In this document: positions 465 through 22,900 of the stretch, in pieces
Layout: the number at the start of each line of letters is the position of its first letter
Position numbering within the stretch: position 1 is the stretch's first letter
From: Echinarachnius parma
Taxonomy: Eukaryota > Echinodermata > Echinoidea > Clypeasteroida > Echinarachniidae
Length of the DNA stretch: 64,000 nt
Direction of reading: 5' to 3'
NCBI GenBank assembly: GCA_037951105.1
Contig: JBAMJV010003012.1
Location: 62,001-126,000 of the forward strand
The notes under the pieces: model-generated
What the model was told of the DNA's origin: nothing
What the model saw: only the letters and a program-made list of their open reading frames with translations
The model's database searches: none
Program-made: the position numbers and the translations under genes

Positions 465-600
465 GTCCTTTCTAGGACTATCAACATTCCTTTCTAGGAC
501 TACAAATTGTCCTTTTTAGGACTCTCCTAGAAAGAATACCAACAGTCCTTTTCAGGACTATCCCGACAGTCCTTTCTAGGACTAACAACAGTCCTTTCTA
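465..600 (+). repeat. Minisatellite of small hairpins (AGTCCTTTNTAGGACT)
   Basis: About five imperfect copies of a 20-35 bp unit. Each holds a self-complementary core (AGTCC, a T/C-rich loop, GGACT). Related units recur at 2425-2475 and 2645-2752 inside the insertion that splits the transposase exon, which suggests both came from one repeat family. Confidence 0.6.
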
Positions 601-1197
601 CATGCGGGTACCAGAGTCGGTCCAAGAAAGAAACTTGGCTTCAGCTTTCCAGGGAAGCCTGTGAGTATGCTGCATTTATGCGCTTTAAATGTTCCATGCA
701 TGAATTATGAATATGATTCATACATTTATTTGTTCACATTAAGCATCAATATGAATAAACTAGCTATCCACATAGTACTGTACGGGGGGTAATTGCCCCA
801 TTTGCCTGCAGGGTTCATGCCATGCATTGCGTATGATAGTATTTTTAAAAACGTTCTATGCATTGCCTTACGTACATGGTCATTGTATACAGTATGATGC
901 ATGATCTATGATTCTTGCGATATGAACATGGTGGTACTATAGCCTATAGGCAAGGCTTGACACTCGCACTGGCCCGCTGGCCCGGGGCCAGTGAAATTGC
1001 ACGTGGGGCCAGCAAAATGTATAAAAGTCATATTTTGGTGGCCCGATCGGGCAAGCAGATTGGCAACCCGACATTGACAAACTGAAAAAATGTTATTTTC
1101 TTTTATGTCATGCTTCATCTGTAATCATAGGTTTGATATAATTAGGAAGGAGTGATATTTTGAATAGTAAAAAGCTTACTCATGAAATACAATTTTG
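598..1197 (+). repeat. Direct duplicate of 2992-3591
   Basis: Nearly base-for-base copy at an offset of 2394 bp. It contains the 3' end of exon 1 of the DUF6589 gene, its splice donor and the start of intron 1. It stops inside the small hAT-like MITE that is complete at 3345-3689; the truncated copy starts at 951. The truncation makes 2992-3591 the source. The junctions share only about 3 bp (CTA on the left, TTG on the right), as expected of microhomology joining. Confidence 0.85.
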
Positions 1198-1494
1198 ACG
1201 ACACATCTTTGCTGAAGTTATCATTTTGCTCAATCCTCCTAATGCAAGGGCAGCATATCTTATGCTGGGTAAAGTCAACGTTCACAACAGATAATCCTGT
1301 GAGTTCGATCAACTTATTGGCGATCACTTCTTTTACACATGAATACTTTCGAAATGTAATTAAATCTCTGTTGCAAATGACACATACTCTTACTCGTAGG
1401 CCTACGGTACCCGTATTTTCTTTTCCTTGTATTGGCTGCTTCGATGTCACACGTTTAGTTGGAGTTTCCGCCATGATTTTCCATATTGCATGTC
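1195..1494 (-). pseudogene. Inverted partial copy of DUF6589 exon 1
   Basis: Reading on -, the frame from about 1474 starts MAETPTKRV, as exon 1 of the gene at 2011 does. It runs without interruption through the CX2C ... CCPC zinc-binding region as far as KDVSS, then leaves homology at the junction with the direct duplicate. Unlike the + copy, it has no insertion between the QHK and CCPC segments. It therefore shows that exon 1 was once continuous. It is a 5' fragment without the rest of the gene. Confidence 0.8.
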
Positions 1495-2010
1495 GACATC
1501 GACATCATTTCCCCGACACGATGCATTTTTCCTCGATCCAGGGCATCCTATCCTATCTCGCGCGGCCAGCTGACCGAGGCATACAGCCACTCAGCTGCAT
1601 GGTACCCAGGCTAGCAGTGCTGGGCAATGTCACAACACACGTGTGCCTTGTTTACACTTTTACAAAGTTACGTGCACTATGGATGCGGGTAAAATATAAA
1701 CATTGTTTGTAATCTTATTAGGTTTTATCTATATTTGTAGGTTTTATATGATATTTATTTGTATATATATATTAATGTAATTATATTAAATGTATAGAAA
1801 ACGCATCATTCATTGTTTAAAAACAGTCGAATTATTATATTTTGATACATGCTTCACCTATACAATAATGGAGGAGGCAAAGGCCAAACGACGTGCGTTC
1901 ATTGGTCAATTATCGCCAAATAAAATATTTGCATAAAATCTATGCATAATTCATTAAAATCAAGCCTATGAATATTTATGAGCCATCCGTGACATGCAAT
2001 ATGGAAAATC
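1495..2010. promoter_or_regulatory. Upstream region of the DUF6589 gene
   Basis: AT-rich DNA before the first ATG. An inverted-CCAAT-like ATTGG lies near 1900-1905 and TA-rich stretches near 1740-1800. No terminal inverted repeat matching the DNA beyond the helicase gene was found by eye. Promoter function is inferred from position only. Confidence 0.25.
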
Positions 2011-5000
2011 ATGGCGGAAACTCCAACTAAACGTGTGACATCGAAGCAGCCAATACAAGGAAAAGAAAATACGGGTACCGTAGGCCTACGAGTAAGAGTA
2101 TGTGTCATTTGCAACAGAGATTTAATTACATTTCGAAAGTATTCGTGTGTAAAAGAAGTGATCGCCAATAAGTTGATCGAACTCACAGGATTATCTGTTG
2201 TGAACGTTGACTTTACCCAGCATAAGATATGAGAGACTAAAATTAACCTTCGACTTTTTGTGCTCTACTGTTAACTGCAGTACATCGAAAAGGTAGCCCC
2301 ATAATTCATAAATTAAAAAAATAGCCCCAAATAATTGAAAAATAGCCCCAAGGCCAGCTGTATAATTAAAATAGTATGTCTGTTCATTTGCGCGTGGGCG
2401 GAGGTATGCACTCGGTGAGTACACCAACAGTCCTTTATAGGACTACCATAGTCTTTTTCAGGACTTACCAATCCACCCATCTTACATGGTGTACCCGTAA
2501 ACCGCACGTATCAGTTGTCACTTGGCTCTCACAATATGATCACACACTGTACTCCAATAGGTCTATTTGGACTTCCCAATGGTTCATACAACATTCAACA
2601 ACAATCAATTTTATGTTAATAATTTGGAGAAATAAAAAAATCTACCAATTGTCCTTTTTAGGACTCTCCCAGAAAGAATACCAACAGTCCTTTCTAGGAC
2701 TACAAACAGTTCTTTTTAGAACTCTCCTAGAAAGAATACCACAGTTCTTTTCAGATATGCTGCCCTTGCATTAGGAGGATTGAGCAAAATGATAACTTCA
2801 GCAAAGATGTGTCGTCAATTAGGGAAAGGTTTTCATCAAGTGAGAGTGCAACCACAAGGACAAAACGTATGGTTAAGGCAGCAGATAGCCCAGTGCATTC
2901 GAAGGCTAGAGTACTCAAACAAGTCAGAGTCACGAATACTAGTACACTACCAAGCCAAACTGGACAGGCAAGAGCATATACATCACCATTACTACATGCG
3001 GGTACCAGAGTCGGTCCAAGAAAGAAACTTGGCTTCAGCTTTCCAGGGAAGCCTGTGAGTATGCTGCATTTATGCGCTTTAAATGTTCCATGCATGAATT
3101 ATGAATATGATTCATACATTTATTTGTTCACATTAAGCATCAATATGAATAAACTAGCTATCCACATAGTACTGTACGGGGGGTAATTGCCCCATTTACC
3201 TGCAGGGTTCATGCCATGCATTGCGTATGATAGTATTTTTAAAAACGTTCTATGCATTGCCTTACGTACATGGTCATTGTATACAGTATGATGCATGATC
3301 TATGATTCTTGCGATATGAACATGGTGGTACTATAGCCTATAGGCAAGGCTTGACACTCGCACTGGCCCGCTGGCCCGGGGCCAGTGAAATTGCACGTGG
3401 GGCCAGCAAAATGTATAAAAGTCATATTTTGGTGGCCCGATCGGGCAAGCAGATTGGCAACCCGACATTGACAAACTGAAAAAATGTTATTTTCTTTTAT
3501 GTCATGCTTCATCTGTAATCATAGGTTTGATATAATTAGGAAGGAGTGATATTTTGAATAGTAAAAAGCTTACTCATGAAATACAATTTTGGGGCCAGTA
3601 AATTTTCTTTCGGGCCACCAGAATAGGGGAAGAAACTATTTCACTGGCCTGACCGGGTCACTGACTAAAAAGGTGAGTGTGGAGCCCTGCTTATAGGCCT
3701 ACATTAATAAGGGAACGTTTGATCATGACCATGGTTTGATCATCCAAATCGCATTTGGATTTTACATAGGTGGGTACAGGGGGAGGGGGTGTTAACCACA
3801 TGCATATAGAGTGTGAACAGGGGGAGGAGTCAATTAATTTCTTACAATAATTGGCATCATGTGTATCTGGTAGCCTATATGGCCCTTGGTATACGAGTGG
3901 AGATCAACTATGTTTTAATATATGTTGGTGAACCAGTCTATACATCAATCACCATTGATAATAAGTTACATTGTCAAATTGATGTTAACCCGTTGTCTAA
4001 AGGGAATAAAGTTGGCTATGTACAAAGTCTATTGGGATTTCAGAATCAAGAAACAAGGGGTTAAAACTAAAAGAGAGCAAATTTACAGTGTGTATTAATG
4101 GAGAAAATAAATTATTTTCTTTAGAAGGTTCAGTTGGGGGAAGGGCTGTAGCATTCTAAATCTAATGATACTATATTAAAGGGAAATGTAATTTATCTGA
4201 TTTCACCTTTCATATCAATGCCCAATAACCAGGAACAGCACAATAATATGCATTTAACTGTGATGTAAATTGTACAACAAGGCATTTACAGATGTGTTTT
4301 TTATTTCTTCCTTTCTTCCAGGAAGGATTATCCAAGCCGGTTCCCATCACTGCTAGTACTACTCACAGTCGCAAAGAGGCATCACGTGTGTCAAACATAC
4401 CACATGAGTTAATCTCTCACCTTGCAACCGACTTGGAAAAGGGTGACATTGCTGGTTTGGTGAAACATGTTGCAACTTCAAGTGAAACAAGAGAGCATTT
4501 CCGATCATATATAGCTAATGAGATCAATAATGAAGCTTCAGTCCTGTGCAGTAGCAAAGATACGTCTTTATTCAATGACTCAAGCAAATCTGCCTTGCAG
4601 GTGAGTAAATAAACATAATTTTTCATAATATTGAAGTAGGTACATATTAAGGTATGATATGTTAAGTCTGTAATTTGCTTTCTTTAGCTACTAATACTCA
4701 TTTTCTCTTTTATTCAAACTGATAAAAGACAGGAAGTTTTGTATGTTAGCACAATTGATTTTATTCAGCAGAAGGAATGTTTCTAGGGAGGAACTTGGTA
4801 GCCTGTTTTCTTTAGAATAGAAATATTAATGTCAAGTACGTGCCTGAACTTTTAGTTCAAGTGTAATATTTTGTTAACAATTAAGAGTGAATATTGTATT
4901 GTAATGGAATAATAAGATACAAAGCTAACTAATTCCTTCTAGAGTGTTCTTTAATACCTTGAAAGAGAACTTACAGAATATTTTTAAAGAATGTTAATGA

Positions 5001-8000
5001 AAAATTAACCTCCCTGTATTGTCAATACATTATGAGTTTTACAACAAGAAACACATGTGGGAGCTTAAATTACAATTCCACTCTTTCTTTTGTTTTCAGA
5101 AATGGTCTTATGAGGAACAGGAGAATGAGCTGCAGCTGAAAGCACCTGTGTTGCTGACATGTCTAAAAGCAGTAGCTGTAAATCCCGCTTTGGATGAGCG
5201 AAAGAAGAAGACATACAAGGACATACAACCAGCAATCATGACTGCAGCTGGTGTGTTGCTTTATAGCCGCAACAGACTTATGAACTCTCATCAAACAATG
5301 ACTGCATTAACTGTTAAGAGAGGTGGGGCTAATGTCCAAGCAGTTAAACGTCTTTGCGGCCGTGGAGTGTCTGTGTCATATGATACCCTTCTGCGAAAGC
5401 AGGTTGAGTTTGGTCGAGGGTTCGATGAACAGGTTCTCTCCTGGAAGAAAAGTTGTGAACGAGAACACGAGGAAGAAAAGAAACTTCAAGAAAGCGATGA
5501 TCCCTCCGCTAAGGAAGCTATGAGAGCATTAAACAGAGAGAGACATCCAGGATTCATCCTGAATGGTGATAATGTAGATCTCAGGATATCCCCACGTCAG
5601 ATGACCATGGATAGTGGAAACAAAGATCTACACTATTATCATTTGATTGCTGTAGAGAACAGAGTTGTTGACTATTCGTTGAGCAATGAACGTCCCAATG
5701 CTGACATCAAGCAGAGTCCACTGTCAGAGTTTCTGCCAACAGTTGATGACAACACTGCCTTGAGGAGTGAGTGGATAATGTTGGTTGGCCAAGCAATTGC
5801 CCGTAACGTTCCTGCACTCAACTGGATGGGGAACTTTGTCCCAGCTGTCAAACCACACAAGTACATGGCTATGATGAAGAAGAAGAGCAAAGTGGTAAGT
5901 CAACATCTTACTAATGACTACTTCCATCCTTGCAAATAATAATACAATTGAATACTGGTTGAATTTGCATGATGCATAAATATGGTTGCTCATGGCTAGA
6001 ATGCTACCCGGGGAGTTGAGTAGGTGTGGGTTTTTAAAGTTTTAACTGTGCTTAAAATTACCAGTGGTGAATAATAACCAAGGATGTTAATTAGTAATAA
6101 TAATTATGGAAATTTGAACAGTTACATAGTTATTACCCAGTAAAGAATTTCTCTAAAAGTAACATTTATTTGGCCTTATGTTGCTCTTTCATATATGATA
6201 TTCCCCAAGATTTTTGGTTTAATTGTTTGATTTGATTAGATCAATATCTTAAAAATATGTTCTGCCTGTACAGAATAAAATGTCATCCCAGATGTAAATC
6301 CAGAAGATGAAATTTAAAGATTTTAAAACAATATTACTAATCTTCATTTCATTTCTTTTTCTTTACAGGTGAATCTTGGGGTTCTGACTGAAAATGAGAA
6401 CACGCATGAGGGGATGGTAGCCATCCTTGATCAGATGAACAAGTATATCCCGATCGTGTCAAACGATGATCAACAGCAGCAGCTACCAATCATCTGCGGA
6501 GGAGACCTCTTGACGTGTGAGAGAATGATGAACGCTAAGCTAGACAGACAGGACTCTTCTTCATCAGCTGCCAAATGGGAGGGGGCAATTCCTGTTATCG
6601 ATGACTTCCACACCATGGCCAACTTCTTAGAGGTATAATATTTTTACATACCTACTACTTTGCAACTATTAACTAAACATTTACTGAATTTTATTAGAAG
6701 CTTGGACAATTTGAATTGTAAATGTTATATTTTACTTTATGCGACTCCTGTTTCATTGTTAACTTTAGAGAGTGTTCATTATTTACATACATTTGTCACT
6801 AACAGCTTTTGTTTATTTTTTAAAATTGCAGGAACAGGTAAACTGATGTTGCACCCAAACTTGTGTCAAACATTTGTTGTACTAGGGAAACATTCATCTA
6901 AACTTTCACTGCTGAGGAAGAGGACAAAGGTATCATAATTCGTGTTTTTTTTTTTTCATTTACAGGTAATATGGAAACTCCTCTATTCACTGAAATCCTC
7001 AAGAGACCCAGGCACACTGTATGCCGCAAGGAACTTTCTGAAGGCAAACAATGTTACCACACATCCTATGAAGGACGTTAATGCCTCTGTGGAATTCCTG
7101 AGCAAATACACAGATGCTTTGATAACATGTGCTGCACTGGAATACTTCAGGATGGAGGATGTGCATGCCGAGCCAACACAACACAAATTCGACAAAATGA
7201 CCATGCAGCCAACGATGTATGTAGAAGAGGAACTAGGGCGCCTCGTCGACCAGCTTGCCTTCCATGAAGGACCAGATTACGGAAAACCAACCAAGCATGT
7301 GTGCCACATCTGCAGAAAGGAGTATGCACGGCTACAATCACTCCAGAAGCATTTGGCCGAAAAACACAGCAGCAATATCCAGCAACAACAACAGCGAGCA
7401 ACACCACAGGACGGCGATGAAGACAGCATCTTCAACTACAGTGTCGCTGCACTCAGCATCTGCCTGTTGCTAAGAGATTTTGAAGATGCACGTCGTGTTG
7501 GTGATGGTGAGCGCATCATTCGACTATACAAGTTCCTTCTACTATACTTTAAGCTGACTGATAAGACTAAATACGGGTACCATTGCATTCGCCTCTTGGC
7601 CCAGGTGAAAGGCATCCTCTCCCCACGATTAGCACATCAACTCACTTGGAATAGGTTCGTAAACAAGGAAGGACACGCTGACTCAAACATTGAACTGGAT
7701 CGAGAAATCGAACACCAGAACAGAGTATTTAAGGATGAATGTCGACACTTCCGCGGCAAGGTAAGCACCTCCTCTGTAAGTAGAATTAGTCATTCTGCCC
7801 AGCCTTGCCAAAAAATTCTTGTCCAGTGTGACAAAGTAACACATGTCCGGACACAGTCAGGGAGGCACACAGCTAAAGATGTAACAACAGACGTCCAGAA
7901 ATTGGCCCATCATCTTCTCAATGCCCACATCTTCCAGGAACAGAGGCCTCGGCGTCACTATGCCTATCCAACCTTTCCCAGAAATCTGCTCACACAGCTT

Positions 8001-8060
8001 GATCTGGCAAAACTGCACACCTGGATGAAATCCAAAATCACTGAATTTTCAAGACATTAA
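2011..8060 (+). CDS. DUF6589 protein, probable Academ-type (AcademH) DDE transposase
   Basis: Exons: 2011-2224 plus 2753-3054 (one original exon split by an insertion), 4322-4600, 5100-5894, 6369-6632, 6966-8060 (TAA). The donors are gtgagt, gtgagt, gtaagt and gtataa, the acceptors cag/acag, and all joins are phase 0. The predicted product is about 982 aa. It begins with C31-x2-C34 and C74-x2-C77, a ZAD-like zinc knuckle. The DUF6589 core follows, with GDNVD (D about 422), CGGDLLT (D about 576) and glutamates near 661 or 677 that could complete a DDE triad. A C2H2 finger (C731, C734, H747, H752) lies before the C-terminal block with HYAYPTFPRN. DUF6589 is a family widespread in marine invertebrates and fungi. 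The facing RecQ-like gene supports an AcademH transposase; a domesticated host gene is the alternative. The insertion in exon 1 probably inactivates this copy, although everything downstream is open. Confidence 0.75.
2232..2752. mobile_element. 521-bp insertion in transposase exon 1
   Basis: Flanked by a 7-bp direct repeat AGATATG (2225-2231 and 2753-2759). Removing it together with one repeat restores the frame seen in the inverted copy at 1195-1494. It carries three short TAGCCCCA-type units near 2290-2350 and hairpin units (AGTCCTTT..AGGACT) like those at 465-600. The right boundary resembles a splice acceptor (TTCTTTTCAG), but no GT donor sits at the left boundary, so it is not a normal intron. 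I see no clear terminal inverted repeat and no coding capacity. Family unknown, possibly related to Penelope-like tails. Confidence 0.7.
3345..3689. mobile_element. hAT-like MITE in transposase intron 1
   Basis: 345 bp. The ends are CAAGGCTTGACACTC and its imperfect complement GAGTGTGGAGCCCTG. They are flanked by 8-bp repeats CCTATAGG (3337-3344) and CTTATAGG (3690-3697), one mismatch. The CAGGGCT-type end and 8-bp duplication are typical of hAT. The inside has GGCC-rich short repeats and no coding sequence. A left half is present at 951-1197. Confidence 0.75.
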
Positions 8061-8235
8061 AGGGATCTAATAACTTTGTGCTGCATGCAATTTCATATGA
8101 AGGCCCGTGTTTAGATATTCCGAGCACCGCTCTCGGATTGATGTAACACACATCGTGAGTTTACTTCGGGAGATTACGGTGGAATGCGAGTTGGATTTTG
8201 CTGACTACCCATTTTAACCCACGCATATTTGTCTT
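8061..8235. other. 3' flank of the DUF6589 gene
   Basis: No open frame. The C-rich segment CCGAGCACCGCTCTCGG near 8120-8136 is a short dyad. No clean AATAAA signal was seen close to the stop codon. Confidence 0.35.
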
Positions 8236-8885
8236 TAAGGTATGAGGGAACACCAATTGGAGTTTGAGGATTTGGACAATGTTACTAGTCCCTTTTAAGA
8301 GATAAAGAGCACCCTCTTGACTTGTAACGGCTCTTCTTTTGAATGATTACAGGCTTTCATCTTAGTCGTCTGTAATTTTGTATTCCTTTTGAGCATTTTG
8401 GAGTTTAACTATTAAAACGTAACATGCACAATATTTTATTTTAAATGGTTGAAACCAATTGGCCCGTATTCACAAAGGAGGTTTGTACAGTCCATGGTCT
8501 AAACCCCGGTTTACATCTATGGAATGCCAATTGTAAACTGATGGAGAGAGAATGTGTACCATCAACATTGTTAACAAGTAAGGAATTTACATTCTCTCTC
8601 CATCAGTTTACAATGGCATTCCATAGATGTAAACCGGGGTTTAGACCATGGACTGTACAAACCTCCTTTGTGAATACGGGCCAATGAGTTTAGAGAGCAC
8701 CACCTTGAGTTTTAACAGCTCTTTTTAAAATGGTTTCAGGCTTTTTACTTAGTCATTAGTAATTTTGTATTCCTTGTGAGCATTGTGGAGTTAAAACTAT
8801 CAGTTTGTAATGTAATGGTGCGGATTTGGTTACTAATACTAATTTTGACCAAAGCTATTCATTAAAGCCATTTCAATTGGCAGCT
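8236..8885. repeat. MITE fragments (TTGAGTTTTGG family) split by a palindrome
   Basis: Both flanks of the palindrome at 8457-8686 hold similar copies of one sequence: a GAGAGCACC..TTGAGTTTTAACGGCT-like block, then CATTTAGTC-like and GTATTCCTT..GAGCAT blocks. The same blocks occur at 25258-25768 and 49417-49853. The left part, 8236-8300, also matches the end of the repeat at 43240-43620. Confidence 0.6.
8457..8686. mobile_element. Foldback MITE, near-perfect palindrome
   Basis: About 230 bp that is almost its own reverse complement. The arms of roughly 100 bp start AATTGGCCCGTATTCACAA and surround a loop around ACCATCAACATTGTTAAC. One indel separates the arms. No coding potential. It sits inside an older MITE. 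Confidence 0.85.
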
Positions 8886-8894
8886 TTTGTAATT

Positions 8895-9010
8895 GAAAGC
8901 ATAGGTGTACCCAGGGGGGTTTGGGGGGTTCAACCCCCCCCCCACCCTTTGTCCAAACAATTATTGTTTTGGGGGGTTTGAACCCCCCCCCCCCCCTTTT
9001 CAAATTTTAA
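8895..9010. repeat. G/C-armed short element, left part
   Basis: TACCCAGGGGGGTTTGGGGGG is followed by runs of C, the arm pattern seen in the G/C-armed elements elsewhere in the window. The right terminus is not clear. A TGGTCTCGAGC stretch follows, related to 36040-36110 and 47490. Confidence 0.45.
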
Positions 9011-9792
9011 ATGGTCTCGAGCTGAGTCAAATCGAATGGCTATTCGATATCCGACCGTGAAGGTCGGATACCGAATACAAATTTTAGGATACGAATATCC
9101 GATTTTTTTTTTTTTTTTTTTTTTCCCCGTTTAATTTTGTAATCCCCATTCGGTAGATTCGATCAGAAAATGGCACATTGAACCCTGCTTATCTATTGCT
9201 AAATTATAAAGTTAAGGTATTTTACAGTAAATTAACAAATAAACAAAACAAATAATAAACCAAAGGTAAGAGGATTAATATACAAGTGGTATAGTGAGTG
9301 CCAAATTTAGACAGCAGTTTGTACACTAACATCACACTGTACTGCCGATTCTATTGAAAAAAAACGGACAGAATATTATTTAAAAAAAAAAAAAAAAATT
9401 TCAATTTTGTCTGGATTATTTTATCTTAAGTTAAGATATGTATGTTCAAATGAATGTTGTAAATTCTCAGATGTTCACTTTATAGAAGAAACAGAAACCA
9501 ACACTGAAATTCCACACATGGGACTACCCCTGTGCTCATTCTAGAAAATTACATCTTTTCCTGGTATTTTTTCTGGTATAGTTTTGAAAATTTTCCAATA
9601 CTAACCAGGACACATTCAAATGTCAAAATAGCACATGAATTATTTGACCATCTAGAATTGGACTGTTTAGATGGGTTAGATGTTCATGATCTAGATGTAC
9701 TCAATTTTATTTTGTCCATGTCTTATTTTTTGTGATGCGATCTCAAATATTCTTCAAAGGTAGCTATGAAGTAGTCAGCATACCGTAACATG
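9011..9792. other. Non-coding DNA with homopolymers
   Basis: Contains a T tract near 9102-9124 and an A tract near 9380-9397. No exon-like open frame or named repeat. Confidence 0.4.
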
Positions 9793-9877
9793 CAACCAAA
9801 AAAATACACGGGGCAAAGGGCGATTCGCCCCCGATACTTTAAAATCGCCCCCGTGAGCCACGGCACGGGGGCGGAAG

Positions 9878-9912
<35 letters not shown>

Positions 9913-10175
9913 TTTGTTTAAAATTGTTTACATTTATTTTTACACATCTTTTGCATGATCGGAAAGCGCCAGAAACGTACCAAACATGCCATAATCAGAT
10001 AGATTACATCATGATAATCATTTATTAGACCCTTGAGTGCTCAGTGAAAACGATGTAAAAAAAATGAGCCCCCGTGAGCCCCCAAAATAGCCCTCGTGAA
10101 TAATTTCACGAGGGCGTTTTTTTCCCTCAAAATTTCAAAATCGCCCTCGTGAAAAAAAAAGTATTTTTTTGGTTG
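9793..10175. mobile_element. MITE with CAACCAAAAAAATAC termini
   Basis: 383 bp. The ends CAACCAAAAAAATAC and GTATTTTTTTGGTTG are perfect complements, flanked by TAACATG on both sides (9786-9792 and 10176-10182). The inside has GCCCCCGTGAG- and GCCCTCGTGAA-type subrepeats and a 30-plus A tract. Non-coding; family undecided. Confidence 0.75.
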
Positions 10176-12076
10176 TAACATGTAATGCAAGTTTTATTAC
10201 CATGGAAATGCCATATATGCAGCACTGATTCTATGCAACCATACATGTATAATTTAACCATTATATTAAGTCAAACCAACAATGAAATATGCCATTATAT
10301 TGTTCGCAAGAAAAGAGATTAAATTCTTGCCTTCCATTGTTTCCATTGTGCCTTAACCAATCAGTGACATGCTTTGATCCTCTAACTTTTGCAATATTTA
10401 GAGATAAAGTGATGAAATACTACACAGATATTATATTCATCTTCATTTCCTACTGCAATAATTGTACAGCACTCGGTGAGCTGGCATTATGACTGCCATG
10501 TATTCCCTGCATACTTCCCACTCCGCACGAGTCACCATAGCCAAATTTGGATACAGTGCGCGATGCTTGGTGATCGCGAGTCTGCTTGTTTTGGGCAAGG
10601 AGGTACTCCCTTGTTTGGGCGATAATAAATCGGTGTCTGCATGTTGTGGGCAGGCCTCTTTAAGAAAAAAACAAAGCAGAATATAAAAATATGACCTAGT
10701 TTTTGTAAGTATGTTTTATCAGTGTTATTATTTTTTTGTACAAACTGAGTAAAATGTCTTACCAAGGACCATTTAACAATACATTGTAGATATTGGCATA
10801 GCCACGATTATTATTTTCGACATGTATTTCATGTTAATTCTGTAACTGTTGAGGATGTAATGCTAAGTTTCTTGCATTGCCCTTACCCAAGAAATGCTTT
10901 CATCTACATGTTTAATGTATGTCAAGATATTTGTGTTTTCATATATATTTTTGCTACAGTGACATTGCCAATCTTCATAGTAATTGTAAACGTTTTTATT
11001 CAGGTTATCTGTTCTTCCGTTCTGTTCTTGTGAACTTGAGTACATTTAGCTGCCTTTTGAACTTTTAAGATTAAACTTAAACCTCTATTTACTTTCAACT
11101 GTTAATTATCTTTATTAGATATTGGGTCATGAGGACATTATTAGTCGTACATGATTTACTAACTGTGGATGATTGACGCTATAATGATTTTCCTCCAGCT
11201 TATTGACATACTAAGCAGTTGTTGTCAATTAATTTTATTTTCTGTCTATGATGAAATGCCTTGTCGCATTGAACATTGTATTAAAGAAATTGTATTTTAA
11301 ACATTCCGCAATAATGTGTTACAACACAAACTTTCAGAAATATTCTATTCTCCCCCCAACAGGTACAAATTGATGTTAAGAGTATTTGAACATCTTGTTT
11401 TTTTAAGTTTTCAGAGACACGAATACATTTAAGGAACATTGTACAGTGTGCTTATTGAATTTTATAACAAATATGTTGATTTGTTTGATAAATAATTTTG
11501 GTCAAACACAATTATGTGTTTCATGTTTTCTTTTTTTCTGTACCATGGGTAAGGGACAAAACAGTGTAATTTATATCACTAATGGAAAGTGTGCAATAAC
11601 ACTACTTATTTGTATTATTGGGTATGTAACACAGATTGTACATAATGTTTTACGGGTACTTTTGCTTTTAATCATCTTCCAGATGCCAAAGATAACACAT
11701 TGGTAAAATTGTAATGTGTAAAATCATTGGGATGGGCAAGCTATACTTGTGTCATTGTCTATACATTCTGAATGTCTGTCATTGTTAGAGCTGTCAAACA
11801 TTCCCTTTTTTGCCAGAATTATTCCTTTTTTATATATATATATCATTTACGGCATTCCTCCCCCCCCCCCCCCCCCCTTCGCAATATGGGGTCTCTATTT
11901 CTGTTTTGCTAGGTTGGCATCTTTGGTCCGTGCACATTTTGGTATGATAAAAGCAATATGAAAATGAAGAAAATAAAAAGAACACTGATGTAGGAAAAAC
12001 ATTTCAATGTACATGTAAACTTTAAATGACAAAGATATATTTTAATTTAAACATATAAGAAAACTGACCAGAAATA
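10176..12076. other. Intergenic DNA, nothing recognised
   Basis: AT-rich, with a C tract at about 11858-11878. Open frames are short, with no exon signals or recognisable domains. No third gene such as an XPG nuclease, which other Academ lineages carry, is visible here. Confidence 0.4.
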
Positions 12077-12221
12077 CAGGGAAACCCCATTATAACGAGG
12101 TAGTCAGGACTATCGATTTTACCTCGTTATAACCAGAATTTCGCTATAACCCGAGCTCGTTATAAGTGGAGCATTATGCCATTGGAACAATCGGGACCAA
12201 AGTTATAACGGGGTTTCCCTG
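12077..12221. mobile_element. Mariner/Tigger-like MITE
   Basis: 145 bp. The ends CAGGGAAACCCCATTATAA and TTATAACGGGGTTTCCCTG are flanked by TA on both sides. This is the classic ...CGTTATAACG-type MITE of the Tc1/mariner-pogo group. Confidence 0.85.
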
Positions 12222-12711
12222 TATAACGTGATTTAAAGAGAGCAAAGAGGTATTTTAGACAGATATATTTTGAGATATGAGCTAGAATTTATTTTTTAAG
12301 CATGTCAATGACATTTTGTTACTGTATGAGCTACATGTGGACACCATCATCAATGTATTCTGGAAGTTGCTCTGATCTTCTCAAGTGTATCAGACTACAA
12401 TATTTTACATTGACCATGTACATGTTCAATAAATATTTCTTATTTGCATAAGAATGAGAATGCAGTTTCCTATATATATTTTGTCAATCTCTTCCTTATT
12501 CTTAAATATTTGTTTGTACTCAGTCTACAAACTGTGCATGTAGAATTATATTTGATGTTTGATAATGAGTGCATTTATCTGTTGAAATTGGACGTCCATG
12601 ACAAAAAACAACATATGACATCACATACTAATTCATTAAGAAATAATGCCTCCGGCTACTTCGTTGTGAAGACATACAATTAACACTTTCACAGGAGAAA
12701 ATAATGTACTA

Positions 12712-12843
12712 CAGTGGAACCTCTTTATAAAGAGGCTATTTCACATGTTCAGGTTATTTATGTATTGTATGATTTGAAAACCCTGATATATAACAAGGTA
12801 AATTCAGATGGCCAAATGTGCACATTACAACAAGGTTCCACTG
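12712..12843. mobile_element. Mariner/Tigger-like MITE
   Basis: 132 bp. The ends CAGTGGAACCTC and its degenerate complement ..AAGGTTCCACTG have TA on both flanks. More diverged than the copy at 12077. Confidence 0.8.
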
Positions 12844-13052
12844 TACTACTCTCAGTACTCGGACACAGAATTAACCATGGATGCAATCAATAGGTTACAG
12901 TGCATTTCAACTTTAATGTATGGATTCAGCATCAAATTTGACAGTGTGCAAAGGTATACTATATCACTTGATAACACGTGATAAGTTCTTCCTCAGTCTA
13001 TACATGAACATCAAAATGAAGCTATTACAGTTACATCTCAAATAAAGCATTA

Positions 13053-13605
13053 ACGGGATAGTTGAGTATTGGTCAAACTTAACTTTAGTAACCAAAACCT
13101 GGACCATTATGGTACAAAGTAATATGTTGTAACTTCACCATGCTTGAATGTATACACAATTACAAACGACTACTAAAACCCGGTTATCATTCAAAAAGAG
13201 CCATTACAACTCAAGAGGGCGCTATTTTAAAACAATCCTTGGTTTTAGCCTGTTTTTATACAAAATTGTGCATTTAATGTTTTTTAAAATAATTATTCAA
13301 TAGAGATATCATCAACGACTTTAAAAAAAACATATTCTGATTTTTTTCAAAGTAGTGTTCGAGCAGTTTTTGAAATTTTTCTAAAAAGTCTAAATATCGC
13401 CCGGTGATTGCCGGTGAAGAACATTTTGAATACAAATATATTTATGGATATTTCAGCCGTTTCTGAGCCGATTTTGATCAAATGAAGTTTTTTCTGTCAT
13501 TAAAATTGTATGTTGTTTCGAATTTGAAAGTCAGTTTTTCATTATCTCACAAAAAAATATCGGGGGGCACTTCGGGAAATACCAATACTCAACACTACCT
13601 TAAAT
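13053..13605. mobile_element. MITE, TTGAGTATTGG family
   Basis: The left end has TAGTTGAGTATTGGTC and the right end the complement of TGTTGAGTATTGGTATTTCC. The inside shares blocks with 25258-25768 and 49417-49853: GAGCCATTACAACTCAAGAGGG, the ATTTCAGCCGTTTCTGA region and an ATAGAGATATCATCAACG-like region. Non-coding. Confidence 0.7.
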
Positions 13606-14089
13606 CATTGAATATCAACATTACTTCGCCCCGAGTAGAGTACATTAATTTACCCTATTACGGAAAAAATGTATGAATGCTGGGCCTTGCTACACAAAAA
13701 TGTCTTAGCTACATGTACATGTATGAACAATGTCTGGCACAGAGCTAGGTTAATTAATACTGTACATACTTCCCACTTTCGATTTCTGACACTAATTTTA
13801 CCTTTCCTATTTTCAATTGTGCATATCCATGAAATAGTTGTGACAAAATTTACACTTTTTAGCGAATTATCTCCAGTCAATGCCATTTCTGATATCTACA
13901 TGTAAGTTTTGGCTAACCGTTTATAAAAACAAAAAAATAGATAAAAATACATGAATAAATAAACGTTGCAGTCATTACAGTGTGTTTCTCTCAATGATCA
14001 CTAAAAATATGAAAAGGGTGCTTTCTATACTCCATGCAATACACTATCAATATATAAAACCCCTGTACTTAATATTAAGAAAAGTAAAG

Positions 14090-14520
14090 GAATGTTCAAC
14101 ATCTAAAGGTTTACCAAAAACCACTCTTTGTGTAAAGTTATAATTTGTTGATATAGCCAAACACAACAGCAATATCTTAAAGTTAAATATGTAAAATATA
14201 ACAAATGTGGTTGCTTAATTCATGAACAAAATTATGCACACAGTTGTACAGTATGTACTCGTATGCCAGAGTAATGAGCAAAAAATGCAAAGTGATATTC
14301 ACTATTGCCCTGAATTTGTACTTACTCAGTATGACTATCCAGTACATAATTCAATATCTTCAATTGTAAATATCTTTTTAACTAAAGGGAAATTTGAAGA
14401 AAAAAAACCCTGTTCCATGCATAGAATTGTTTAAAATGCAATCGCAAATACGAGGTAAGAGAAAACCGCTAGACTAGAGTTGGATAATGTTAAATACTAG
14501 ATCCCAGTTAAAAAGATATT
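14090..14520. repeat. Interspersed repeat, copy 1
   Basis: Matches 43240-43620 over about 350 bp, sharing AATGCAAAGTGATATTCACT, AACTAAAGGGAAATT and CATGCAT-type blocks in the same order. Non-coding and probably a MITE; termini not pinned down. Confidence 0.6.
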
Positions 14521-15047
14521 ATCACCATACAATGTCTGTATTAGAAAATAATAACATGCAATTTTAAATTTCCCCATTTTTTAGACACTAAAATAAAGGA
14601 TGTACAATGTATCTTGATTTTTTATTTTCAAATTAACAAACCTTGCCCAGTACACAAATATCTTTAAATTTGTTGAATAAAATTAACCACATCCAGTGAA
14701 ATGCCATTTTAAACCTGCAAATCGGGTTCTAAACATGCTAAAGGGAAGGGATATAGTAATTGTGTCGACATTTGAAAACAAATTATACATTTCTATGATC
14801 TAATTTATCAGAAGGAATGTAAAAATCTATGTAAATAAATATGACAGAGTAAAATTAAGCAAAACTCATTCAAAGTCATTCTCCAAAAGGTGATCTAACT
14901 ACAAGTTCAGTTTGTTACAGACAGATTGTTGCTTATTAAATTGCTGGGAGGAAGATGACCCTGATCACTGCAACACCAGAGATGAAACAAATAAAAAAGA
15001 AAATATGGCAGAATAACAATGATAAGAAAGCGTGTCCCATAAAACTC
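14521..15047. other. 3' flank of the helicase gene
   Basis: AT-rich, no coding signal. As the downstream flank of a - strand gene it should hold the polyadenylation signal; no single candidate stands out. Confidence 0.35.
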
Positions 15048-18000
15048 CTAATCAGAATCAGATGAATAGATCAAAACTCCCTTGAGTTGTTCTGATTCAC
15101 TGTCAGAGTCACTTTCCAGTTCAATACAGACTTCTGCAGAGTCTGCGCAAAATCCACTAGCTCTCTGTGTACCTAGCACACGCACAAGTATCCCCCACAC
15201 CTTGGACACGTCAACAAAAAATGTGTAGTTTGCCTCCAACATACTAGGACTATCTATAACCTCGCAGTCTCTAACAATTAAGTCTATTGCAGCAACAGGA
15301 AAGGCACTGGCAAGGTCTTTTCCGGAATACAGCGCTGCACATTCATCTCCCCCTTTGAGATTCTCATCTCTGAATGCAAGCAGTTCACATCGTAGATTGT
15401 CGCGCATCTCTTTTGTTACCTCTCTGCACTTGGGCTTTGCGCTGGTCGTGTGAATCTCGCTGTTACATGTATCTACCCCTCGGAAGTCAAATTGTCCGTA
15501 TCTTGGATCCAAGCATAATTTGTCTGGCCCACATGTGCACTGCCTCGCACAAATGTCGCAGCACAAATGTGGCACTTCATGTATGGCTGGCGCTACACCA
15601 AACGGTTTCATGAGATGTTCACGCCTGCAAATGTCATCATTGTCCAGGTATGCTTTCATGTTGCTGCTGATTCTTTGCCTTCTGCAGCCACGGTATTTGA
15701 TGAGCACAGCATGGCAAGGCTCCCCACCACGTCCTCCCCGTCCACTCTCCTGAACATAATCATCTATGTCCTCAGATGGCCCAAAGTGATATATTCTTGT
15801 AAGATTCTGGCAGTTGATGCCCATGCCGAATGCGATGGTCGCAAACAGAACCCGGATCTCACCATCTGGCTGAGAAAAGGAGGATAAAACCTCATCCTTT
15901 ACTGTTTCCTCTGTTGTCGAGTGGAACATGGCATAATGCCGGCACGGCTCAGATTTTAGGACTTCATGGAAGGCACTAAATAATGTTCTGCACTGCCGGT
16001 GAGTCCTGCAAAAAATAACAGTGCGTGGCATGTCTCTGTTCTTCTCCTTCAACTCAGCGATGAGTGGCGAAAAGATATCTTGATCTTCCTTTAACGATGT
16101 CGATACGACAGAATACCGGATGTTTGGTCGTTCTGGTGAGTCCATCACAATGGTTGGCGATGTGAGAGACAGGCTCTCAATCAGTCGTGACCTCAAGGCA
16201 AGTGAGGATGTTGCCGTCAGGCTAACTGTTGGCACTGAACGGGGAATCAGGGATCGGACTTCTGCTAAGCGTCCATAGCAGCTTCTGAATGCAGCCACCT
16301 TCTGCGAATCTTGGCCCCTGCAGAAGTGAAAAAAGAAAAAAGAAAAACATGCTACAGTGCTATATAGTTTGCATTATGAATACAACAAAACTTAAGAAAA
16401 ACCAAGTTTAATATTTCCCATAATGTGCACATGATTTTAAAGATACAACAATTTTTATTTCATCAAACGCCGTCCAGAACAGCACCAATATATCTGATGT
16501 CTGATCATATATCTGAGTGTGTTGAATATTAATCAATATTTAATGCCAAAACTTTTTTCTTTTAAATACCTAAGAGGCGTTTTAGTAGAAGACATTGATG
16601 ATCTCTGTATCATTCATATTGAAACAAAGAAAATATCACACTTACAATTTTGTATGAAATGGTTCAAATCAAAATGCCTTTTCTGAGAGTGCCCTCTTGT
16701 ATTTAACAGAGCATAAAAGGATAGTTATTTTTTTACTTATTAGAGAGTACCGATTTGGTCAAACTAAATTTTTGTAACACAAATCTGCACCATAACATTA
16801 CAAACTAATAATTATAACTCCACTGCATAAACCAGAACGTCAATGACGTAGCGCTCATCCGCCATCTCGCAACATCAAATATCACAAATGTCATGTGGTA
16901 CACTTTTCAACTGGTCAAAAATAAAAATTTGATGCCCTGGAAGGGACATAAAAATTTAAAAAAATAAAAATTAGAGTGAAAAAAATATAAATTTGACGCC
17001 CCGGAAGGGGCATGGGGAAAAATTAAAAAAAAAAAAATTAAATAAATAAAACAAAACAAAAAATAAATAAATAAAAATAAAATTTAAAAAAATTTAAAAA
17101 TTTAAAATTTAAAAATTACTATAATTAATGAATGGAGAAAAATTTCAAAATTCTGTGTAGAAGTTTAGTGTACCAAAGTTAGCTCTACCAGATGAAGCAA
17201 ACCAAATCAAAATCGGTCGAGAAATGAAGAAGCATTTTTTGTGATTTCGAATAAATTTGCATAAATTACCATAGATAATGAATTTCACGATTCTGTGTAG
17301 AAGTTTTAAATCCCCCTCCTAGCCCTATCTTATGAAACAATCAGAATCAGAATCGGTTGAAAAATAACGAAGAAGAAGCATTTTGAAAACTGTGGACGGA
17401 CGGACGGACGCCACGGCATGGCATAAGCTCATCGGGCCCTTTCATCGGGCCCTTTGGGCCGGATGAGCTAAAAATGATATTACAATTGGGTCCCGGTTTT
17501 GATTTTCGGTTCCGAAAAAAAAAAGAATAAAAATAAGAAATACAAATTTTAAAAATCATGAAAAACAAAACCAGACTTCAAGTAGCATTTAACAGCATAC
17601 AATGTTCTCCATCCATGACCGAAATTATTATCACTCAATTTTGCTTCAAGTAGTAAACCCAAAAGGGTGCGAGCCTAGGCTACTTTGACTCTCACGGAAC
17701 TGATTTTTTTTTTTTTGTATTCAAATTTTTTTTTAAATCACAAATATCGGGTTCCGATCAGAACCAGTTTATCACTGGCATATCCGACATGAATCGGCCT
17801 TATTTCAAAAGGAGTCATTTAAACTGAAAAGGGAGCTCTCGACAAACTTCTGATACTGTAAGTTTCACATGTGATGTTTTTTTGAAGTAGTGATTACATA
17901 TAGAAATAATATTTGAAAAGAGGAAGCATTTCTATTTTTTTTAGGACTGGTTCATAATTATCAAATAATTGTGGGGCCCCACAATTATTACCAACATTGG

Positions 18001-19623
18001 TTATTTGTTATTTCAGTTAGCCGTGAGTTTATTCTGTCAAAAGAATTGTATGCTCTATCAAATTGACACCCAGCTGTTCTTTATCTCAACAAAAAATATT
18101 CACCCTCTTAAATACTAAAAGACTCCTTAAGTGCTGAAAAATAATTTTGTGAAAAACAATGTTTCAGATACAGAAATATATCAGTGATCAAGCATATTTA
18201 AACCAGCATGATTTTGAGTCAAATGTTTGAACAGCTTTAATATTCCACTCTTTATATAGCATGAGTCATGAGACATTTTTGTCACAGGGTATTCATAAAC
18301 AGTTAATGAGCAGGCTTTAAATCACCAACTTTGATATTTTTACCTGTATTTTACTGTGAATGGACACATGAATCATATTTTAAATTGTCGAAATTTAAAC
18401 CAAACTGAACTGAACAGAATAATTCTCACCATTTGACAATGCAATGACTCTCATCCACTACTAACGCACAGAGGTTCTCCTGCCATACTTTGGTTGAAAA
18501 GAGGTCGAATCCGTCGGCGAAGACACTCTCAGGGCTTATGAAGACATAGGAAATGGTGCCATTCTTCACCCTCTTGTCATCCTCAGGAGAAGCATCCCCG
18601 TAGTACACAGCTTGCAGACCAAGTTTCTTTAATGCGTCTACCTAGAATTACCACAAGAAAAACAACATAAAATTGTAATTACTTCAAAGTAGTGAACTTG
18701 CACTACACATTTAATAATAATAATAAACAATTCTTAGAACGCATAACACTACCGAGTACGGTCTCTATGCGTGTACTGTATTTAAATGTACAGCACATCA
18801 CCTTGGCATTGGTTAGTATGCCTTTGCGGCTTTGCCCTTTCTAAATAAAGGGATTTTTGAATAGTAACATTGTCCAAATCTTCAAAACTGAATTACGTAG
18901 AGTTGGAAGCCGTTCTCTCATATTTGCTGTAATTGTGTAAACAATGTCCAATACTAGAAGCATGGGACAGATCTTTGTTAAATTTCAAAAAGCAACGGCA
19001 ACGCGTGTGTCTAAGACAAAGTCGCTTTCTCGAAATACAATAATATTAAAATTAATACTTAGTCTACTCTTACTACTAGTACTAGTAGTACTAGTACGTC
19101 TTAGTCAGATCATGGCATAAATCGAATCTGATCATCGCATCGGAATCTGCACTATTTTCTCAATGACAATGACAAAGTGTGAGTACAATTTCAAGAAATG
19201 TGTAAGATTTTTAAGTTTACTTAATTAGATTGAACAAATTCTGTAAATAGTTACCTGGCTTTTCATGAGGGATACAAGCGGGGAGATGATAACCGCGATG
19301 CTTACTAACGGAGCACTGGCTGGATAGGAAGCGGTCTCCGTCGGCGTAGGCGCCGATCCATTGCCCTGTCCTGTGCCTGTTTCAGCGGGCTCAGTCGCAC
19401 TACGGGATCGCAAGTAATCTCTGCACAACGGAATGGCTTGAAAAATGGCACTCTTGCCGTAACCAGTCGGCAAATTCACAAAAACATCATCCCCGTTCAG
19501 TACAGCGGTAATGGCCTTCAACTGTAAATCCTTAAAATGTGCAATTCTAAGCCTTTTCGCTGCATATTCGATGCTCTTCTGAATCAATTCATCACTCGTG
19601 GTTCGATGACAGGAGGACGCCAT
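15048..19623 (-). CDS. RecQ-like SF2 DNA helicase, probable AcademH accessory helicase
   Basis: Three exons on -: 19623-19255, 18641-18430, 16317-15048. Donors are gtaact and gtgaga, acceptors ctag and gcag, and the joins are in frame. The product is about 616 aa: KDLQLKAI (motif 0), LPTGYGKS (Walker A, 51-58), DESH (186-189), then IVKWG with W split by intron 2, LTATSS (motif III, about 227), VLFATIAFGMGINC (motif V, about 350) and YVQESGRGGRGG (motif VI, about 381-392). A cysteine cluster follows (CRREH.., CCDIC) that resembles the RecQ zinc-binding domain. There is no HRDC domain. RecQ enzymes unwind DNA 3' to 5' using ATP. No stop or frameshift was seen. It converges on the DUF6589 gene, which supports a transposon-encoded helicase over a host RECQ1/4/5 gene. 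Confidence 0.85.
16725..18120. repeat. MITE (TTGAGTATTGG family) interrupted by unrelated DNA
   Basis: Lies in helicase intron 2. The left part 16725-16850 matches the left end of the MITE at 13053, and the right part from about 17800 matches the remainder. Between them is about 950 bp with A/T-simple sequence, three GCCCC(T)GGAAGGG-type blocks, a GGAC-GGAC-GGACG run (17395-17410) and GGGCCCTTT repeats. The inserted part is non-coding and unclassified. Confidence 0.55.
18642..19254 (-). other. Helicase intron 1
   Basis: Starts gtaact on - and ends ctag. It contains a fragment related to the 14090/43240 repeat (about 18850-18990) and a short ACTAGT repeat at 19075-19098. Nothing coding. Confidence 0.6.
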
Positions 19624-19763
19624 TTTGAAGAAGACAGCAGCTGATTATGCATATTCATGAGTACGTGATAACCCGGCTTCCTGATTGGGTGCAACTCGTA
19701 GGTAGAGGAATTCAATACTTAACAAAAGAATTCATCGGAGAGCAATCCATTTGCGAAGAGGCT

Positions 19764-19931
19764 GTCTCGCCAAGTGATTGTGCAGGGTAGTCGCGCTGTC
19801 CAGTCGTTCCTGCATAATGCATACTATACCGGGACGAGACATGCCTTGTCTCGCCAAGTGATTGTGCAGGGTAGTCGCGCTGTCCAGTCGTTCCTGCATA
19901 ATGCATACTATACCGGGACGAGACATGCCTT
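19764..19931 (-). repeat. Tandem 84-bp duplication, two units
   Basis: Units 19764-19847 and 19848-19931 appear identical. On - they translate in frame as the C-terminal tail of the LINE (..LDSATTLHNHLARQ), so the duplication repeats 28 residues without shifting the frame. Confidence 0.85.
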
Positions 19932-22900
19932 GTCAAGAGGCTAGTATGATCCGGGGTATGAAGGAGTATTTGTAGCAGTTTTTGTTAGCGTTTATCGGAA
20001 TGAAGCTATTTACTGATGTGTTCCGGAGACTCCTTCGGACCGGACGCAAGACCGTTTGCACTGGCACGGCGAGGCGACCCGCAACTGCCTCGTGGAATGT
20101 TGTTAGGCGATTTATTTTGCGTCGCTGTTGTAGCGTTTCCAAATTCAGTTTCTGTTTTATCGAGGTGACACTACTCATACGACTATAATTTCCACTTACA
20201 AAACGCGCTGCCCTATTTTGAATGTGGGTCCCATACAGAGGAGCTATAGTCTAAAATGGGTCTAACTAAGGTCTTGTATGACATTGCTTTAATGTGTCTA
20301 GTACAATCATACAAGTTCCTCCTCAAAAAACCAAGTGTTCTATTTGCCTTAGCACAAATCATCCTGTCCACATGAGTGTTCCATGTTAGGTCTGATGTTA
20401 TGTCCACTCCTAGATATGTGTGTGTCTTTGTTTCTTGCAAGTCAGTGTTGTTGAGGGTGTATTGATGTTTATATGGCGTTCTTGCATGAGTAATGCGCAA
20501 AACATGACACTTTTGGGCATTGAAGTCCATTTGCCATTTGTTTTGCCATTCTGTAAGGGTGTCGAGGTCCCTTTGTATTTTTCTTGCACCGTCTGGGCCG
20601 GATACTGTTGAGTATAAAATACAGTCATCTGCGAATAAACGACACTTGGACCTGATGCCCTCCGGTAAGTCGTTTATAAACAACAAAAAGTATAGTGGCC
20701 CTGTAACTGTACATTGTGGCACACTAGAGTCAACTTTGACCCATTCGGATTGTTCCCCTTCAACGACTACCCGTTGTTTACGTTTTGTCAAAAATTCTTC
20801 AATCCATCTATGTATTTCCCCCCTTATACCATTATTCCACAACTTCAATAACAATCTTTTGTGTGGCACTTTATCGAATGCCTTTTGAAAGTCCATAATA
20901 ATCACATCGATCTGTTGTCTCTGGTCAACTTCCAGGGCTATATCATGTATGGTAGAAATCAATTGTGTTTCACATGAGTGTTGTTTTCTAAATCCACGTT
21001 GCTGTTCACATAGGATGTTGTGTGTATCCAAATGGTGCATTATGTTTGTGTGAAGTATGTGTTCCATAACTTTACTACAAACAGAAGTGAGGTTTACGGA
21101 CCGATAATTTGCCGGGACTGATTTGTCTCCTTTTTTAATACAGGAGTTATATTGGCGCATAGCCAGTCGTCTAGTATTACACCTGTGTCCAGCGACAGTT
21201 GACATATGACCGTCAGTGCACCCCCAATCTCGTCTGCCATTGCATGCAAGACCCATGGTGAGATCTCGTCTGGGCCTGCAGCTTTATGTGGGTTTAGATC
21301 AATAAGGAGTTTAATTACACCTTCCTCATTCACAACAATGTCTGGCATGGATGGGATGCCACTCTCTTTGAGTGAGGGTATGTCTTCCATTCTCTCTTGT
21401 GTAAACTGATGTTGGCATTGCGTATTCAATAAATCCGCCTTTTGTTTACTGTCCGTTATCAATTCACCCGTACTTTTATATTTTAATGCAGGGATGCCAG
21501 TTGCGTCTTTCTTAAGAGTTTTAATAAAACTCCAGAACTGCTTGGCTGTATCGAGATACTTTTCTTGGACATATTTTCGATATGATTTTTACTTTCTTCC
21601 TAAGTTCCTTGAACTTATCCCAATCCACTGAGTTTTTACTCTTCCTTGCTCTATTGTATGCTCTTTGTTTCCGTTTGTGTAGGCGTTTCACTGCCCGATT
21701 TATCCATGGAGTACTATTTTTTTTGCTCACTACTTTAGAGGGTATGTGAGCATTTATAATCTTACAAAGTCTTTGTTTCAATTCCTTCCACAATTCATTC
21801 ACGTTTGTTTTACTCAAGTCATTTGCCTTGAAGTCAGAGCTTATCTTGGTCGCTTCTGACTTCAATTGTGGGATGTCAGCTTGAGTATACAAATATACCT
21901 TTCTTGTTTTTTGTTTCACTACAGCTGGTTTAGTGTTTACCAATGCCGTGGGAATACCATCGTGATCACTCACGCCTGGTATTATAGTTGATCGAACAAC
22001 TAGTGTGGGATTCTTTATAAAAAAGTAAATCCAGAATATTGTCCCAACGAGTTGGTTTCCAACCACTTGCTCTAGTCCATAGTCATTTGATATGTCAATC
22101 AAGTCTCGACACATTGTTGCCTTTTGTGCCCCCGTTTTGACTGATTGCGTTTCCCAACAAATGTCACCCAAATTGAAATCTCCCCCAGCCAAATATTACT
22201 AAGGTTCTCCATTCTTACTTTGTCCAAGGATTGTCTGAGAATGCTGAGAATGGACAAGTACTCTCTGTCTGTATTCGGTGGTCTATAAAAGGATCCCACC
22301 AATACAGGCTTCGCCCCTTGAGTCTTAATTTCAATCCATATACTCTCATTTCCTGTATCTAAATCATGCCTTTGAGTGCATACCATATTACTCTTCACGG
22401 CAATCAATACTCCACCATATGCTTTCCCGTTTGCATTGACTTTTCTGTCCTTCCTAAATACTGTGAAGCTATTTGGGAATACTTCACTACTACTCACCGA
22501 TTCATCTAGCCATGTTTCGGTCCCAATAATTACATCGGGATTATCCACTTCAAGACATGTTTGAATTTCGGCCGTTTTCCCCCTAATGCTCTGAAAATTA
22601 ATTACCAAAACCTTTAATGGTTTATAAACCTCTCCTCGTTTCTGATTCCTTTTATTTGTTGGCTTATATTGTGGTGAGGATGTTGCGAGAGGTGGCCTCA
22701 GTGGTGGACCCCCCTCATTCAATGAGCTATCGATATCAGACCCACTTCTACTAGAACTACTAGAACTAGAAGCAACAGTAGGGCCACCCCCTCCATCTCC
22801 TCTAGCGCCATCCGAGCTATTCATATGTCTATCAAATGCACTCCGCTCTGAGAACAAACTCGAGGCAAAGTTAGGAAGGCCGCAGTTGAAGCATGTCTGC

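Follow-up and report, generated by a model that had tools for sequence, protein, structure and literature searches.

A 64,000-nucleotide stretch of the genome of Echinarachnius parma, hereafter the window (C3011:62001-126000; the genome comprises 1.2 Gb in 14,790 contigs), carries two genes that face each other: one on the + strand (2011-8060), encoding a protein with a DUF6589 domain, and one on the - strand (19623-15048), encoding a RecQ-like helicase. This arrangement raises the question of whether the two are neighbouring host genes or parts of one mobile element and, in the latter case, what role DUF6589 plays in its movement. The first-pass annotation had proposed, from the letters of the sequence, that both belong to a single AcademH-type element, and this proposal was borne out by the recurrence of convergent pairs elsewhere in the genome, by ends with 9-bp target duplications that enclose both genes and by paralogous empty sites. 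Together the two genes very probably make up the coding part of an AcademH DNA transposon, the copy of which on contig C5498 is about 17.6 kb long. AcademH is a known, little-studied group, to which the window element adds another member.

The linkage of the two genes was assessed genome-wide, with strong helicase loci defined as contigs carrying a helicase match at E below 1e-50 (n = 12). A convergent DUF6589 partner was present on 10 of these contigs, with 6.4 to 11.8 kb between the matched exons, and the other two (C1375 and C3646) had no DUF6589 partner among the matches listed. Unlinked genes, which the first-pass annotation had named as evidence against a single element, were thus confined to this minority of strong loci (2 of 12) and to fragments. 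That both genes have spliced open frames, an insertion in exon 1 aside, would suit two host genes facing each other by chance. This explanation retains practically no probability, since it conflicts with ten convergent pairs on separate contigs, with target duplications and with empty sites; the copies flanked by duplications already refute it.

The ends of the element were defined by comparison of the copies on C5498 and C3186, both of which begin with TAGTCTTTTAACAAG on the left and finish with CTTGTCAAGAGGCTA on the right. The C5498 copy (300399-317961; 17,563 bp) has the perfect 9-bp duplication ATGCCAAAC at both flanks, the C3186 copy (277153-299697; 22,545 bp) has GGGTTGAGT, likewise perfect and of 9 bp, and a copy on C2355 (125319 to 104257; 21,063 bp) has the perfect 9-bp duplication GGGATACCC. 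The C2355 copy, with the ends TAGTCC...GGACTA, belongs to a distantly related family of this genome, with transposase pieces 40-43% identical to the window's. The terminal inverted repeats (TAG...CTA) are imperfect, matching at 12 of 15 bases in C5498 and C3186 and at 9 of 15 in C2355. The motif CAGGAACGACTG starts 28-65 bp inside each end of C5498 and C3186, in inverted orientation; neither end of C2355 contains it within 250 bp. Perfect 9-bp duplications therefore flank all three large copies for which both ends are in hand and, together with the short elements described below, 12 of 15 elements. Seven large copies lie outside this count, namely those in the window and on C7119, where the transposase sits at the contig end, on C5249, where the right end was seen and the left end was looked for and not located, and on C7457, C512, C3286 and C6696.

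These ends also bear on the origin of the gene pair. Some helicase and DUF6589 matches in the genome are solitary, a pattern in keeping with two unrelated mobile elements, one with DUF6589 and one with the helicase, that happen to adjoin. However, in each of C5498, C3186 and C2355 the helicase and DUF6589 genes share one pair of enclosing ends, which already refutes two separate elements; the convergent order is, moreover, repeated in families whose transposase pieces are just 38-68% identical to the window's, and the chance that two elements are involved is close to nil. Two other kinds of transposon have to be weighed against the length of the target duplication. Kolobok elements duplicate TTAA, and Mutator-like elements make duplications of 9-11 bp. 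A Mutator-like element that had captured a helicase would accordingly match the duplications observed, but it is very unlikely: the Pfam scan of the + strand gene gave neither MULE nor any other named transposase family, only DUF6589 being above the cut-off, and this domain is common to proteins with a FEN/XPG-like domain (see below). A KolobokH transposon is similarly improbable. PMC10799480, which refers to Kojima 2020 for AcademH, lists KolobokH alongside it as a helicase-bearing group, but the three duplications given above and others are of 9 bp and not TTAA, so that KolobokH is set apart by duplication and not by sequence.

The assignment to AcademH is accompanied by an extensive population of related ends. 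The end pattern TAGYCTYTTRACAAG, a 15-mer, had 1033 genome matches (517 forward and 516 reverse), as against 27 (17 forward and 10 reverse) for its reversed control. Within 100 listed of the 1033 matches, ten facing pairs of ends lay within 1 kb, and all ten were examined: seven have a perfect 9-bp duplication, and the remaining three are imperfect (one matching at 8 of 9 positions, one fitting 9 bp once a one-base indel is allowed, and one with a 10-bp repeat offset by two bases). Among the loci L061-L070, two longer non-autonomous elements (781 and 1164 bp) have both ends close together; the 9-bp duplication is perfect in each, giving 9 of 12 for the non-autonomous elements overall. The genome appears to hold many short relatives of the AcademH element; the defined ends, the 9-bp duplications and the short elements sharing these ends are firm.

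Empty sites and sequence identity provide a view of the history of the element. When the C5498 flanks were joined with one copy of the duplication, the resulting sequence aligned over its full 300 bases to 13 other places at 97-99% identity, and further places matched at 87-89% (40 places scored); the C5498 element therefore sits in a repeat, other copies of which are without it. The empty site of C3186 is weaker: the best paralogous match, 91% identical, extends 13 bases beyond the junction. Over long aligned blocks, the window and C5498 copies are about 99.7-99.8% identical, an indication that the AcademH element has been mobile in this genome in the recent past.

The features of the window copy are collected in Table 1. 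The first-pass annotation had taken this copy for a nearly complete transposon spanning at least 2011-19623; it is not nearly complete, because the left terminus is missing and exon 1 of the transposase gene is interrupted, and the right end has to be moved to 19943. Left of 2011 the window is rearranged, with a fold-back of the 5' part of the element (595-2231) in which 1991-2231 forms a forward-sense repeat of part of the element's 5' region and both junctions overlap by 3 bp. This rearrangement may be real or an assembly error. The left terminal 15-mer, that is, the left terminal repeat, was not found within the window, and a 643-bp query from the left end of C5498 gave on the window contig, among the matches listed, its positions 141-643 only, inverted.

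Table 1. Features of the AcademH element and its surroundings in the window (positions count from the first letter of the window).
Feature	Positions	Strand	Remarks
Additional copy of element segment 2989-3591	595..1197	+	99.7% identical
Element 5' region, inverted piece	1195..1993	-	Corresponds to about 141-939 of the C5498 element
Transposase exon 1, first part	2011..2231	+	Start codon; aa 1-73; contiguous with second part in C5498
Dispersed-repeat insertion inside exon 1	2232..2752		521 bp; 7-bp duplication AGATATG at 2225-2231 and 2753-2759
Transposase exon 1, second part	2760..3054	+	aa 74-172
Transposase exon 2	4322..4600	+	
Transposase exon 3	5100..5894	+	Carries D422 (GDNVD)
Transposase exon 4	6369..6632	+	Carries D576 (GGDLLT) and DFH motif
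Transposase exon 5	6966..8060	+	C2H2-like finger and E867 (EIEHQN)
Spacer between genes	8061..15047		No recognised coding sequence
Helicase exon 3	15048..16317	-	
Helicase exon 2	18430..18641	-	Motif II DESH
Helicase exon 1	19255..19623	-	Start codon, motif I
Two 84-bp direct repeats by right end	19763..19930		Each with subterminal motif CAGGAACGACTG on -
Right terminal inverted repeat CTTGTCAAGAGGCTA, element end	19929..19943	-	
Inferred 9-bp target site GTATGATCC	19944..19952		Within LINE-like repeat

The right flank of the element is a LINE-like repeat with reverse-transcriptase frames (RVT_1, E 9.8e-30) at 20213-22195 on the - strand, one of them at 20216-21283; of the places scored, 39 others are 89-97% identical to the 300 bp that directly follow the transposon on its right. 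The copy of this repeat in L082 runs on past the position of the element boundary; the window element therefore probably entered the LINE-like repeat at GTATGATCC, as judged from these alignments, and a second + strand copy of GTATGATCC was not found in the window. Farther along, the window contains a tandem array at 26548-27553 (188-bp period, 5.4 copies) and, at 41969-42370, an exact tandem repeat of two copies of 200 bp.

The structure of the DUF6589 gene required correction. Under the exon joining of the first-pass annotation its product has 982 aa, and a profile search with this protein, which had been suggested as a check, placed DUF6589 at aa 471-919 with E 9.6e-44 (Pfam). The six exons originally described are actually five, the first "intron" being an inserted repeat: in C5498, the base corresponding to window 2231 joins 2760 directly and exon 1 is unbroken, so the intervening sequence is an insertion. 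It has no GT start, its frame runs through stops, it is absent from C5498 and C3186, and it has at least 157 genome matches, itself included, nearly all of them partial. An additional small exon at 6832-6929 was rejected, its frame being broken; joining exon 4 to the last exon stays in frame and fits the family. The corrected gene structure is firm. Below the Pfam cut-off, the protein has a zf-AD-like stretch at its N terminus (30-99) and a C2H2-like finger (729-753) between D576 and E867.

The product of the - strand gene is a RecQ-type SF2 helicase, and the description of the gene as apparently intact, with three exons, was confirmed (616 aa, no stop, GT-AG introns). Pfam recognises the domains DEAD (E 4e-18) and Helicase_C (E 4.5e-16), and the closest solved structures are RecQ, BLM and WRN. 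The two genes converge with no other gene recognised between them, as had been claimed: all eight stop-to-stop frames of at least 80 aa wholly inside the spacer were scanned, and none reached the Pfam cut-off. A segment of the spacer (8251-8800) is about 80% like 49633-49854, far outside the transposon, and the two belong to one repeat family.

As for the active site of the transposase, the first-pass annotation had suggested a triad of D422, D576 and a Glu near 661 or 677. The two aspartates were retained, whereas E661 (H in C3286, E in C5249 and C7457) and E677 (A in C3286, H in C5249) vary within the family and were rejected as catalytic residues in favour of E867, which is kept in all nine rows of the alignment; D576 is kept in all five rows with letters at that position. 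Conservation by itself does not single out E867, since further acidic residues, among them E682, D771, D792, D798 and E861, show no variation in the rows covering them. We prefer E867 over the other invariant acids since a profile comparison aligns it with an invariant residue, E613, of a second class of DUF6589 proteins, encoded in the same genome by intronless open frames reaching 1,894 codons. These intronless proteins have the motif order SIDNID, GDGAT, GDWH, DEAHE, and D355 (GDGAT) and E613 (DEAHE), in first-row numbering, are invariant in an alignment of seven of them. The comparison, between six last-exon sequences and this 7-row alignment, is a weak one of a single pair (probability 36%, E 3.7e-4), and the equivalence of D422 with SIDNID is one of motif only. 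E867 is most likely the third catalytic acid, and D422, D576 and E867 are likely to form the metal-binding triad of what would be a DDE-type transposase.

The fold of the core was predicted for the intronless class and not for the window protein (mean pLDDT 59.5, pTM 0.63). In this low-confidence model, the order of strands and helices is that expected of an RNase H-like transposase in which a long helical insertion precedes the final helix. A Foldseek search with the model produced no significant hit (best E 0.37), and a profile search of the core against solved structures likewise gave nothing significant; Transib, RAG1 and TnsB occur among 32 weak Foldseek matches, none of which is significant and none of which was counted. 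An RNase H fold of the DUF6589 core is no more than likely.

The intronless class further connects DUF6589 with a second Academ lineage, AcademX, which is the nuclease lineage of Academ. In five intronless proteins scanned with Pfam (L025, L028, L035, L036 and L038), DUF6589 alone was above the cut-off. For four of them (L035, L025, L036 and L038, with L028 left out), the C-terminal part was predicted to be FEN/XPG-like: in a structure comparison of the low-confidence model (mean pLDDT 46.4), T5 flap endonuclease occupied ranks 1-3, the first at E 4e-4 being the sole match below 0.001, with a poor overall superposition that gives this match supporting weight only. A sequence-profile search of the domain against solved structures gave nothing significant. 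The modelled C-terminal domain fits one intronless DUF6589 group being AcademX-like.

Since DUF6589 occurs both beside a helicase and with a FEN/XPG-like domain, a shared Academ core is probable, and DUF6589 is probably the Academ transposase core. We infer both its tie to the two Academ lineages and the role of E867. In Pfam the family is described as of "unknown function", and a search of a limited collection of papers for the term DUF6589 found none; the family is now tied to transposition. On balance, we favour a still broader proposal, in which DUF6589 would be the catalytic core of Academ transposases generally, of RNase H type, with the second acid and the final Glu split by a long helical insertion, which in AcademH carries a finger. 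One genome would then harbour two machines, one with a separate helicase and the other with a fused FEN/XPG-like nuclease, and the exchangeable accessory enzyme may explain the difference between duplications of 9-10 and of 3-4 bp.

The proposed movement of the AcademH element can be outlined as follows: (i) the transposase would bind the element ends, perhaps via the inverted subterminal motif; (ii) it would excise the element and insert it at a target whose strands are cut 9 bp apart; (iii) the helicase would unwind DNA at the ends or in gaps, during transposition or repair; and (iv) the short elements would be mobilised in trans. AcademH elements with defined ends, near-identical copies elsewhere and short elements with the same ends are now in hand, and the role of the helicase could therefore be tested.

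Compared with known systems, the window element has in common with AcademH a transposase accompanied by an SF2 helicase, inverted repeats and a 9-bp target duplication; it is likened to the published elements by description and not by sequence, and its size, gene order and ends come from one genome. The helicase core is common to the element's helicase and the RecQ helicases (RecQ, BLM and WRN), whereas the RecQ zinc-binding region is matched by the element's helicase only below the Pfam cut-off, and further RecQ accessory domains were absent from that scan. No XPG-type nuclease was found when both window proteins and the eight spacer frames were scanned with Pfam, although the FEN/XPG-like domain in the second class had likewise escaped Pfam. 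The window transposase and the AcademX-like proteins have the DUF6589 core and the order of motifs, D...D...[FW]H...E, in common, whereas the AcademX-like proteins are encoded by intronless frames and one group of them has a fused FEN/XPG-like domain. The section of PMC10045372 on target duplications gives 9 or 10 bp for AcademH and 3 or 4 bp for AcademX, and, in contrast to the latter, the family of the window element makes duplications of 9 bp.
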